From Desertimonas flava (lineage in GTDB: Bacteria; Actinomycetota; Acidimicrobiia; Acidimicrobiales; Ilumatobacteraceae): a DNA stretch of 64,000 nt. Below are positions 11,208-14,366 of this stretch, piece by piece. Below the pieces are notes generated by a model, which worked only from the letters and a program-made list of their open reading frames with translations, had not been told where the DNA came from and ran no database searches. The first letter of the stretch is position 1. Every line of letters begins with the position of its first letter. A program made the position numbers and the translations under genes. The stretch is from positions 1 to 64,000 of the forward strand of contig NZ_QKYK01000018.1 in assembly GCF_003426815.1 (NCBI RefSeq), read 5' to 3'.

Positions 11208-11837
11208 CTACAGGCGCTGGACCCCGGCGTCGGAAGCGCCCGCCGGTGCCGTCGCGAACCGGCCCGTGGCGGTCACCACTGGCGACGTTCCGTCGCTGCT
11301 CGGCGTGACGTCGAACCAGCACCCTCCCAGGTTGGGGACGGGGCCGTCATGGCCGGGGTGGAGCGACAGGAGCGAGCGGATGATGCCGGCGTGGGCCACG
11401 ACGAGGGCCCGCTCGGACGATGCCGCGGCGATGTCGCCGAGAGCGGCGATGGCGCGAGCGACGACCGACGTCGTGGGCTCGAACCCATCCGGCCAACGCC
11501 CCGCCTGCCGGTGACCGGGCCAGCGGGCGTCGATCTCCCGGTTGGTGAGCCCCATCCACTCGCCGACGCTCCGCTCGGCGAGTCGCTCCTCGATCGCCAC
11601 ACGAAGGCCGAGCCGCTCGGCGATGATGGCGGCGGTGTCGCGGGCCCGCTGCAGGGGTGAGCTCCACACGACGCCGTCGATCGACGGCACGAGTTCGGCG
11701 AGCGATCCCGCCAACTCGTCCGCGGTGCTCCGGCCGGCGTCGGACAGGGGTGGATCGGCGATGCCCTGCCACCGGCCGAGGGCGTTCCACTCCGACTGGC
11801 CGTGCCGGACGAGCAGAACGGGGCGTGGTGTCGACAC
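11208..11837 (-). CDS. Histidine phosphatase family protein
   Basis: 209 residues. Phosphoglycerate-mutase-like histidine phosphatase. The catalytic LVRHGQSEWN is at residues 9-18, followed by SSPLQRARDTA, the acid loop ERSVGEWMGL and the second histidine in LVVAHAGIIRSL. Substrate cannot be told from sequence. It lies 12 bases upstream of the small membrane protein gene on the same strand. Confidence 0.9.
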   Translation of the reverse strand: MSTPRPVLLVRHGQSEWNALGRWQGIADPPLSDAGRSTADELAGSLAELVPSIDGVVWSSPLQRARDTAAIIAERLGLRVAIEERLAERSVGEWMGLTNREIDARWPGHRQAGRWPDGFEPTTSVVARAIAALGDIAAASSERALVVAHAGIIRSLLSLHPGHDGPVPNLGGCWFDVTPSSDGTSPVVTATGRFATAPAGASDAGVQRL

Positions 11838-11983: not shown

Positions 11984-12691
11984 GTGGCTGTAGTGCGCAT
12001 GTTCGCGGCGGCTCGCGCCGCAGCGGGGCGAGGGAGTGACGAGCTGCCGGGCGCCACGGTCGCCGACGTGCTCGCCGAGGCCCGACGTCGCTACGGGGCG
12101 GCGTTCGCCGACGTGCTCGCCAACAGCCGGGTGTGGGTCAACGGGGAACCGGCCACCGACGCGATGATCGTCACGTCTGACGACGAGGTCGCCGTGCTCC
12201 CGCCGGTGTCGGGCGGCGCCGACCTGCGGCCCTTGCCCGAACTGCGGGCTCGTCGGGACGAGCTCCAGGCCATCGACGACGCCGTCTCGTACGTGCGCCG
12301 CGTCGCCCAGGGTCGCGCCGACCTCGCCCGCGACGCGATGCATCGCTACAGCGACGACGGCGACCCGACTCCGGTCTACATCCGTCCCGACCTCGAGTCC
12401 GGCCTGCGCGACGTGTTGTCGGACCGTCTGCTCGGGGGTGGGGACCGGCCACCCCGACCCGCCGAGGACTTCAGCGATCACCCGCTCAGCGCCGAGCTCG
12501 ATGCACTGTGCGCCGAGCACGGCTTCAGCCGGCTCGACGTGCTCGACTACGACGAGCTCGAGACGCTCGTGGCCCGGCTCGACGCGTTCGAGCAGCACGT
12601 CTCGGCGCAGCGGCGCGAGGTGTTCGCCGAGCTCGACTCCGTCACCGACGAGATCGCCGAGCACTACCGCACCGGCGGAGCTTCGGCATGA
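11984..12691 (+). CDS. MoaD/ThiS-like domain fused to RsiG-like c-di-GMP-binding coiled coil
   Basis: 235 residues from GTG 11984, chosen because it restores the first MoaD strand (VVRMFAAARAAAG). Residues 1-78 are a MoaD/ThiS beta-grasp ending in LPPVSGG, but the usual terminal Gly-Gly (77-78) is internal. Residues 86-235 resemble RsiG, the anti-sigma factor that binds c-di-GMP: helix 1 carries D98-x3-S102-x2-R105-x3-Q109-x3-D113 (family E-x3-S-x2-R-x3-Q-x3-D) and helix 2 carries E203-x3-S207-x2-R210-x3-F214-x3-D218. An ATGA overlap couples it to an XRE regulator. RsiG holds WhiG-type sigma factors in Streptomyces (established); the partner here is unknown, and I know of no described fusion of this type. 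Confidence 0.8.
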   Translation: MAVVRMFAAARAAAGRGSDELPGATVADVLAEARRRYGAAFADVLANSRVWVNGEPATDAMIVTSDDEVAVLPPVSGGADLRPLPELRARRDELQAIDDAVSYVRRVAQGRADLARDAMHRYSDDGDPTPVYIRPDLESGLRDVLSDRLLGGGDRPPRPAEDFSDHPLSAELDALCAEHGFSRLDVLDYDELETLVARLDAFEQHVSAQRREVFAELDSVTDEIAEHYRTGGASA

Positions 12692-13071
12692 ACGTGACGC
12701 CTCCGTCGCCGACGGAGATCCGGCAGGAGTTCGAGCACCGGTTGTCGGACCTCGGCGACTTCATCCGCAACCAGCGCGAGATCGCCCGGATGTCGGTGCG
12801 ACGGCTCGCCGATCTGGCCGGGGTGTCGAACCCCTACCTGTCTCAGATCGAGCGAGGCCTGCGCCGGCCGTCGGCCGAGATCCTCCAGCAGTTGGCCGCG
12901 GCGCTCAAGATCAGCGTCGAGACGCTCTATGTCCGGGCCGGTCTGCTGAGCGACGACTCGGCGTCCGAGGCGCCGAGCGTGCCCGAGGCGATCGGCCGGG
13001 ACCCGGTGCTGACGCCCGAGCAGAAGCAGGCGCTGCTCAACGTCTACGAGAGCTTCGTCGCCCACCGCTGA
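12688..13071 (+). CDS. XRE-family helix-turn-helix transcriptional regulator
   Basis: 127 residues. A Cro/C1-type HTH occupies roughly residues 23-80 (FIRNQREIARMSVRRLADLA, then GVSNPYLSQIERGLRRPS). A short C-terminal segment DPVLTPEQKQALLNVYESFV follows. The family is conserved in actinobacteria, often near mshA-type loci. The start ATG overlaps the stop of the MoaD-RsiG fusion by 4 bases, so the two proteins are probably made together and may act in one pathway. Target sites unknown. Confidence 0.92.
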   Translation: MNVTPPSPTEIRQEFEHRLSDLGDFIRNQREIARMSVRRLADLAGVSNPYLSQIERGLRRPSAEILQQLAAALKISVETLYVRAGLLSDDSASEAPSVPEAIGRDPVLTPEQKQALLNVYESFVAHR

Positions 13072-13130: not shown

Positions 13131-14366
13131 GTGACTCGCGCGGCCGTCATCTCGTTCCACACCTCGCCGCTGATCCAGCCGGGGTCGGGTGACAGCGGGG
13201 GCATGAACGTGTACGTGCGCGAGGTCGCCTCGGCCCTCGCCCAGGCGGGGGTGGCGTGCACCACATACACCCGCGCCGATCGTCCCGGACTCCGCCGAGA
13301 GGTCCTCGTCGAGCCGGGTCATCGCGTCGTGCACATCCACGCCGGCCCGTACGACCTGGCCAAGGAGGCCCTGCCCGACTACATCGACGAGTTCACGGCC
13401 GGTGTGCGCGACCACATCGATGCGACCGGCGGGATCGACATCGTCCACGGCAACTACTGGCTGAGCGGGGTGGTGGGTCATCGGCTCAAGCACGACCTCG
13501 ACGTGCCGCTGGTCTCCACATTCCACACGCTGGCGCGAGTGAAGGCCGAGGGCGGCGACCTCGAGCCGGAGTGGCGTGATCGGGCCGAGGCCGACATCAT
13601 CGCCTGCAGTGACGCAGTCTGTGTGAGTTGCCCGGAGGAGGAGCGCCAGTTCCGCCGCCTGTACGGCGACGCCGACGGGCGGGTCAACGGAGCGGTCGAG
13701 ATCGTGCCGCCGGCGGTCGAGCACGCGTTCTTCGCACCCGGCGACGTCGCCGGTGCGCGCCGCGCCGCCGGCCTACCGGTCGACCGGCCGGTCATCGTCT
13801 TCGTCGGGCGCATCCAGCCGTTGAAGGGCCCCGACGTGGCCATCGGCGCCTTCGCCGCCCTGCGCCACGACGACGCCGTGCTCGTGCTGGTGGGCGGGGC
13901 CAGCGGCGTCGACGGTGACGCCGAGGCAGCGCGGGCCCGCCGGCTGGTCGCCGAGCTCGGGCTCACCGATCGCGTCCGGTTCGTCGATCCGCAGCCTCAC
14001 CACCTGCTGTCGAGCTACTACCGAGCGGCCGACGTGGTCGTGGTGCCGAGCCGCAGCGAGAGCTTCGGCCTCGTCGCCCTCGAGGCCGCAGCGAGCGGGG
14101 TGCCGGTCGTCGCCAGCGCCGTGGGCGGTCTGCTCAACGTGGTCGACCACGACGTCACCGGGGTGCTCGTCGAAGGACGGGATCCCGAGCGCTTCGCCGC
14201 CGCGATCGATGATCTTCTCGACGATCACGAACGTCGTGGCGCGCTCGGCACGGCTGCCACCGCCAAGGCGGCGCGGTTCACCTGGAGCCTCACCGCGGCC
14301 CGGCTCCGCCGGCTCTACGCCGACCTCGTCGACGCCCGCCTGCCACTCGTCACGGCCTGCCGCTGA
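13131..14366 (+). CDS. mshA: D-inositol-3-phosphate glycosyltransferase (mycothiol synthesis)
   Basis: 411 residues. GT4 glycosyltransferase that joins GlcNAc from UDP-GlcNAc to 1D-myo-inositol 3-phosphate, the first committed step of mycothiol. Landmarks: ISFHTSPLIQPGSGDSGGMN at the N-terminus, FVGRIQPLKGPDVAI, and the C-terminal EX7E region SRSESFGLVALEAAASG. GTG start at 13131. Followed by a YbjN-like gene as in mycobacteria. Mycothiol links functionally to the SigR/RsrA thiol-redox pair at 32 kb. Confidence 0.95.
   Translation: MTRAAVISFHTSPLIQPGSGDSGGMNVYVREVASALAQAGVACTTYTRADRPGLRREVLVEPGHRVVHIHAGPYDLAKEALPDYIDEFTAGVRDHIDATGGIDIVHGNYWLSGVVGHRLKHDLDVPLVSTFHTLARVKAEGGDLEPEWRDRAEADIIACSDAVCVSCPEEERQFRRLYGDADGRVNGAVEIVPPAVEHAFFAPGDVAGARRAAGLPVDRPVIVFVGRIQPLKGPDVAIGAFAALRHDDAVLVLVGGASGVDGDAEAARARRLVAELGLTDRVRFVDPQPHHLLSSYYRAADVVVVPSRSESFGLVALEAAASGVPVVASAVGGLLNVVDHDVTGVLVEGRDPERFAAAIDDLLDDHERRGALGTAATAKAARFTWSLTAARLRRLYADLVDARLPLVTACR

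Follow-up and report, generated by a model that had tools for sequence, protein, structure and literature searches.

The locus described here lies in a window of 64,000 nucleotides, by which the whole analysed stretch of DNA is meant. A gene encoding a MoaD-like domain followed by an RsiG-like domain is preceded by a divergently oriented histidine phosphatase gene and followed by genes for an XRE regulator and an MshA-like glycosyltransferase (Table 1). The coupling to the XRE gene reported in the original prediction was found, with the stop codon of the fusion gene overlapping the XRE start codon.

Table 1. Features of the moaD-rsiG locus in window coordinates
Feature	Position	Strand	Evidence and remarks
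moaD-rsiG fusion gene	11984..12691	+	GTG start, 235 aa plus stop, single open frame
MoaD domain, residues 1-78, ending in LPPVSGG	11984..12217	+	ThiS PF02597; 6jbz and 1fm0 by fold
Gly77-Gly78 codons (GGC GGC)	12212..12217	+	proposed cleavage directly 3', before Ala79
RsiG part, residues 79-235	12218..12688	+	RsiG PF22802; RsiG chains 6pfv/6pfj by fold
c-di-GMP motif 1, residues 98-113, D-x3-S-x2-R-x3-Q-x3-D	12275..12322	+	alignment A1
c-di-GMP motif 2, residues 203-218, E-x3-S-x2-R-x3-F-x3-D	12590..12637	+	alignment A1
XRE-family HTH regulator	12688..13071	+	HTH_3; ATGA overlap with fusion gene; conserved neighbour
MshA-like glycosyltransferase	13131..14366	+	TIGR03449 E 6.8e-119, 397.4 bits, below curated cut-off of 462.5; conserved neighbour
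Histidine phosphatase	11208..11837	-	PF00300; divergent upstream neighbour

The original prediction described a complete MoaD/ThiS-like domain with an internal Gly-Gly, followed by an RsiG module, and profile searches of both halves agree with this description. The Pfam ThiS model PF02597 matches residues 4-78 (E 2.6e-10, 41.1 bits against a curated cut-off of 22.5), and the RsiG model PF22802 matches in two stretches (E 1.6e-14, 53.7 bits against a curated cut-off of 27). Among the PDB sequences, the closest solved chains are the MoaD-type chain 6jbz for residues 3-78 (E 1.2e-5) and the RsiG/AmfC chain 6pfj for residues 83-233 (E 3.9e-8). The NCBIfam MoaD models remain below their cut-offs for the window's protein (TIGR01682 with 36.5 vs 66.15 bits, TIGR01687 with 39 vs 49.5 bits). 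The AlphaFold2 model of the fusion protein, computed from a 56-row alignment, reached a mean pLDDT of 89.9 and a pTM of 0.68, and consists of a beta-grasp domain, a coil at residues 73-83 and long helices at residues 84-124 and 189-229. Foldseek matched this model to the RsiG chain 6pfv (E 2.8e-5, TM 0.48 by query and 0.68 by target) and also to MoaD chains (6jbz, 1fm0), in line with the beta-grasp fold, and the RsiG half is predicted to form an antiparallel coiled coil as in RsiG. A chance or frame artefact as the origin of the open reading frame was ruled out by the Pfam, PDB sequence and fold matches. As translated, the open frame runs on into the RsiG half and Gly77-Gly78 is internal; a free C-terminus would arise only upon cleavage. 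In the literature, a search for MoaD together with RsiG led to a single paper, on a polymer, and a search with related terms only to a paper on the evolution of RsiG, which makes no mention of MoaD.

Both c-di-GMP motifs that had been proposed for the RsiG half, the full signature and a nearly complete second copy with F in place of Q, are present. In an alignment of 37 RsiG rows (A1; 8 fused and 29 split), all from the window's family, motif 1 begins with D in 19 rows and with E in 18, while its S, R, Q and D, like the E, S, R and D of motif 2, are the same in every row. The Q position of motif 2 is occupied by F in 35 rows and by Y in two, and the strict Q form occurs in none of the 37. Since an aromatic residue is found in every row and the other positions are kept, the second motif without Q reflects a family-wide aromatic substitution and not decay. 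According to the accessible part of PMC8325347, the motif glutamine stacks on guanine and His often stands in its place in motif 1, which makes it plausible that the aromatic residue of motif 2 takes the role of the glutamine in c-di-GMP binding. The C-terminus of the window's RsiG (positions 12640-12691) is shorter than in its relatives and misses the VDxLL end of their RsiG proteins; it is there that the XRE start overlaps the RsiG stop.

Within the family sample, 97 of 101 genomes gave a match, and moaD and rsiG are adjacent separate genes in 81 of the 89 parsed family genomes. In the split family loci, MoaD stops at the Gly-Gly or a few residues beyond it, with up to 34 residues in one locus. 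Junctions were read in 144 loci, some from the same genome, and the rsiG start lies inside the MoaD stop (ATGA or GTGA) in 57 of the 116 loci with both halves, a count that covers family and class with some repeats. Outside the family but within the class, the two genes may lie 0.1-4 kb apart or on different contigs. A fused gene without a stop was found, among the parsed family genomes, in the window's genome and in all seven sampled genomes of another genus (g9). A contig search with the single window protein gave no match, and a profile search with the alignment gave 80 loci, 79 of them with a MoaD end. Twelve of these 80 loci are fused, namely the seven g9 loci and five further MAGs, which is not a frequency because the profile was built from fused proteins. 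Shared open frames had pointed to fusions in G131 and G144 as well, but stops lie between the halves and these two cases were ruled out.

The relationship between fused and split genes was examined with a quick tree of 89 MoaD plus RsiG rows from which the linker was removed. These rows represent 89 of the 97 matching family genomes; G010, G022, G023, G041, G049 and G056, with only one half in the stretch, G001, with an unparsed junction, and G007 were left out. On this tree, the distribution of the fused state requires a minimum of two changes, also when only well-supported branches are considered, and a single shared fusion event was set aside for this reason. Two fusions appear to be the simplest reading, with the window's gene (L001) on a long branch and SH-aLRT as the only branch support. 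The best explanation is that the fusion arose from the conserved, usually overlapping moaD-rsiG pair. It is highly improbable that the window's fusion results from a sequencing or assembly error in a junction that is normally split. The window's genus is represented by one genome only, which leaves this particular junction unreplicated, and its closest neighbour on the tree, G026, has split genes, but the stop, the rsiG start and the Shine-Dalgarno sequence (SD) are all gone in comparison with the relatives, and their joint loss makes a single base error unlikely. In addition, the same architecture is replicated in 12 other genomes, so the gene is a true fusion, as originally claimed.

In 66 of 76 distinct split junctions of the family, the stretch from -16 to -5 upstream of rsiG has an anti-SD pairing energy of -4 kcal/mol or lower, with a median of -8.8 kcal/mol. 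In some split loci (e.g. L002, L012, L022), the Gly-Gly codons GGA GGN double as the likely SD of rsiG. GGAGG at the Gly-Gly codons is absent in 12 of the 13 fused genes and kept in L009. Within the 20 codons that follow the Gly-Gly, the strongest in-frame start reaches -5.8 kcal/mol in one of the eight fused genes of the window and g9 (a TTG at codon 18 in L008), -3.3 in another (a TTG in L009) and -1.1 or weaker in six, and ranges from -4.0 (an ATG at codon 7 in L195) to -1.1 in the five further fused genes. The window's only in-frame start in this range is a TTG at +0.4 kcal/mol. It therefore seems that RsiG can no longer be initiated on its own in the window's gene, and that this is doubtful for most of the other fused genes. 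That RsiG is also or even mainly made from an internal start, with the long chain as a minor product, is very unlikely. Although an in-frame TTG, GTG or ATG follows the Gly-Gly within 20 codons in all 13 fused genes, with a moderate SD in L008 and L195, its position is not conserved, the GGAGG is mostly missing and the window offers only the weak TTG described above. Furthermore, even if RsiG were made separately, MoaD would have no stop of its own.

The region following the Gly-Gly was compared in 176 distinct MoaD genes, all of which were found by similarity to the window's protein or its relatives; duplicates were removed by comparing the initial 216 bases of each MoaD match. The motif PP[VIL][SA]GG is kept in every one of them, and residues follow it in 151. 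The genes stop at the Gly-Gly in 25 cases, continue for 1-3 residues in 105, for 4-60 in 12 and for 200 or more in 21, and run into RsiG in the remaining 13, where position +1 is Ala or Ser throughout. The 21 long tails, of 248-287 aa each, have a strongly hydrophobic composition, and BLAST sorts them into one group of 19 and another of 2; nine aligned long-tailed proteins have PPVSGG in common. Long-tailed MoaD genes were seen at loci L032/L081, L042, L044-L046, L048-L050, L053, L055, L151, L153, L156, L159, L165, L172-L174, L177, L179 and L235. For the one long-tailed protein that was modelled, the fold resembles CdsA (4q2e, E 3.2e-3, TM 0.50 by query). A Pfam search with six of the tails of about 250 aa gave nothing over cut-off, with one CTP_transf_1 and one ABC2_membrane match below it. 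The designation of this partner as CdsA-like is based on this one fold match together with the weak CTP_transf_1 match. Among the matches listed in a literature search, no title concerned MoaD with CdsA.

Tails of one or two residues past the Gly-Gly are also carried by CysO (10 of 20) and ThiS (6 of 15) in these genomes (L268-L302), and the CysO of G008 has a one-residue tail. This weakened the idea of MoaD-specific tails, and short tails could be tolerated and not trimmed. Because they are general in these genomes, the argument for cleavage is carried by the long tails and the fusions. Here, unrelated C-terminal partners, RsiG in 13 genes and hydrophobic domains of about 250 aa in 21, stand behind the same MoaD ending, which supports cleavage. 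In a search of 28 genomes, the long-tailed MoaD was the sole ThiS-family match in eight genomes of other families (G106, G119, G123, G129, G136, G139, G143, G162). MoaE was found in seven of them (not in G136), and a ThiF-family E1 and molybdoenzymes in all eight. MoaD must present a free Gly-Gly end to be adenylated. With the long-tailed MoaD as the sole match in eight genomes that all encode molybdoenzymes, the Gly-Gly is probably freed after translation, as in MoaX.

The partners of both halves were surveyed in 70 genomes of the class outside the family. Here, MoaD was counted as present if it matched the window's protein at E 0.001, and a diverged MoaD therefore counts as absent. MoaD and MoaE are both present in 43 genomes, MoaD only in one (G136), MoaE only in two (G112 and G160, both of which do have ThiS-family matches) and neither in 24. 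For RsiG and WhiG over cut-off, 57 genomes were scored, with both in 45, RsiG only in none, WhiG only in three and neither in nine, several of the RsiG matches being weak, down to 3.3e-4. Since genus g39 accounts for 16 of the 70 genomes, it was counted once, which gave Fisher p values of 8e-8 for MoaD and MoaE and 6e-7 for RsiG and WhiG, with kinship otherwise uncorrected. Of the genomes tested for molybdoenzymes (PF02738), all 17 with this MoaD encode them and none of the 11 without it does. Each half keeps its own partner: MoaD occurs with MoaE and molybdoenzymes, and RsiG with sigma-WhiG. The co-occurrence of MoaD and RsiG (both in 41 genomes, MoaD only in 3, RsiG only in 4, neither in 22) is as expected of linked genes. 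RsiG and WhiG were found without a MoaD match or MoaE in G107, G110, G151 and G170, and MoaD and MoaE without RsiG or over-cut-off WhiG in G120 and G166.

These distributions bear on whether the protein stays whole as a joint device in which access to the MoaD tail is governed by c-di-GMP bound to the RsiG part or by WhiG, or in which the state of MoaD controls RsiG. In support of it, moaD and rsiG lie side by side in the family and often not far apart in the class, and the fused state may be favoured, given the two or more changes that the tree requires. Nevertheless, such a device is unlikely, given that each half goes with a different partner and can be lost without the other, that the Gly-Gly end must be free for adenylation by the established chemistry of MoaD, and that MoaD is fused to unrelated domains of about 250 aa elsewhere with the same junction. 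The proposed switch joining sulfur transfer, c-di-GMP and transcription thus found no support, as the proteins are separate in most members of the family and each half tracks its own partner. The XRE neighbour had been suggested as part of this circuit. Among the 112 loci that extend 450 nt or more downstream, it adjoins RsiG in 65 (from one query, with some overlapping loci), and the phosphatase and MshA genes are present in many of the loci. Since this conserved XRE neighbour accompanies split genes as well as fused ones, its presence is not informative about the fusion in particular.

In all eight genomes with MoaD-RsiG from the window's genome and g9, MoaE, E1, Prok-JAB, molybdoenzymes and WhiG over cut-off were found, with the MoaE of G073 in two fragments. 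The WhiG of the window's genome (G000 C7) matches 6pfv with an E-value of 6.9e-67 and keeps the c-di-GMP-contacting K, G and R (K-x3-G-R). RsiG is kept in G002 (L086), where no WhiG over cut-off was found, possibly due to a contig gap or the use of another sigma factor; it is kept in G028 (L098) too. The other full-length ThiS-family carrier of the window's genome is CysO-like (PDB match 3dwg), and the seven g9 genomes encode a CysO-like carrier with 66-70% identity to it. The window's genome also encodes ThiS, and a fourth frame with weak similarity to ThiS/MoaD, which ends in SGG, was observed at G000:C3:32669-32893 (L070). It could be argued that the MoaD half no longer carries sulfur and is a folding tag or relic, with CysO or another carrier serving MoaE. 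The CysO-like paralogue in all eight MoaD-RsiG genomes would fit this, as would the mycobacterial MoeZR, which sulfurates both MoaD and CysO according to the accessible part of PMC3227635. However, PPxxGG is kept in every fused gene, and the eight genomes in which the long-tailed MoaD has no other ThiS-family match beside it still encode molybdoenzymes. A MoaD half without a carrier function is therefore rather improbable.

We consider it fairly probable that the fusion gene encodes a polyprotein of two ordinary proteins that is cut after Gly78. One chain would be translated and then cut, and this would free the Gly-Gly carboxyl end for thiocarboxylation by an E1-like enzyme, allowing MoaD to serve MoaE. 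RsiG, released from Ala79, would hold sigma-WhiG at high c-di-GMP. The gene would have originated from a moaD-rsiG pair that lost its stop codon, rsiG start and Shine-Dalgarno sequence. A candidate protease is the one Prok-JAB (JAMM-type) of the window's genome, which preserves HSH-x7-S-x2-D, the core of the JAMM motif. A single Prok-JAB turned up in 29 of the 30 genomes examined. The candidate protease may also serve CysO, or serve CysO rather than MoaD, since in G008 it adjoins a gene that we take to encode a cysteine synthase. QbsE/QbsD and a thiosugar carrier are reportedly further precedents of trimmed tails. MoaX is cleaved between Gly82 and Ser83 by a protease that the accessible part of PMC4326299 does not identify. 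According to the accessible parts of the respective papers, the Deinococcus radiodurans MoaD-MoaE fusion is cut by DRJAMM (PMC8832034) and SAMP1-MoaE by HvJAMM1 (PMC4443979).

Several observations count against the polyprotein reading. These include the possible internal starts with a moderate SD in two of the 13 fusions (L008, L195), the GGAGG kept in L009, the genome G136, in which MoaE was not found, and the genomes G112 and G160, which have MoaE but nothing that matches this MoaD. The sole-carrier argument stems from the other fusion type, while the MoaD-RsiG genomes keep CysO, and this slightly lowers the trust placed in the polyprotein. An extension of the polyprotein reading would be that JAMM maturation of a ubiquitin-like MoaD precursor is the rule in Acidimicrobiia and that fused RsiG is freed only as MoaD is processed. 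In this case, molybdopterin or sulfur status, or the activity of the protease, would set the anti-sigma level for WhiG; we assign this extension a low probability.

Parts of this arrangement resemble known systems. Like the twin-motif RsiG of Streptomyces venezuelae (6pfj, 6pfv; accessible part of PMC8325347), the RsiG half has a predicted antiparallel coiled coil and two c-di-GMP motifs, and the window's genome encodes a WhiG with the equivalents of K57, G61 and R62. In contrast to the S. venezuelae protein, it has MoaD in front, D for E in motif 1 and F for Q in motif 2; it also lacks the VDxLL end of its relatives. RsiG was reported for three of four Acidimicrobiales species in the accessible part of PMC8325347. 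The MoaD half shares the beta-grasp, the Gly-Gly end of the domain and the presence of MoaE and E1 in the genome with the MoaD of mycobacterial molybdopterin synthases (6jbz, 6jc0), whereas its Gly-Gly is internal and followed by RsiG. As in MoaX of Mycobacterium tuberculosis and in the D. radiodurans MoaD-MoaE protein, MoaD is N-terminal in the fusion, and as in MoaX a small residue follows the Gly-Gly, Ser in MoaX and Ala in the window. The partner in those proteins is MoaE, while here it is the unrelated regulator RsiG and the cleavage is a proposed one. The accessible part of PMC1779556, on prokaryotic Ub-like fusions, describes MoaD/ThiS fused to other domains (MoaE, ThiG, sulfite reductase and aldehyde ferredoxin oxidoreductase) and links JAB peptidases to Ub-like proteins; no anti-sigma factor or CdsA-like partner of MoaD/ThiS was seen in that part. 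A dual-function enzyme is described as an anti-sigma antagonist in the accessible part of PMC13232838 (2026).

The proteins found behind MoaD, namely RsiG, the hydrophobic CdsA-like domain and tails of 1-44 residues, would, given cleavage, provide a natural substrate set for studying the recognition of MoaD by JAMM proteases, and would bear on the identity of the protease that cuts MoaX. In fusions of ubiquitin with ribosomal proteins, ubiquitin stands in front and is cut off after its Gly-Gly. If the cleavage is confirmed, a bacterial sulfur carrier would act like ubiquitin, as a conserved domain ahead of unrelated proteins that is removed after Gly-Gly, and an anti-sigma factor would be made in a fixed 1:1 ratio with a metabolic enzyme subunit.
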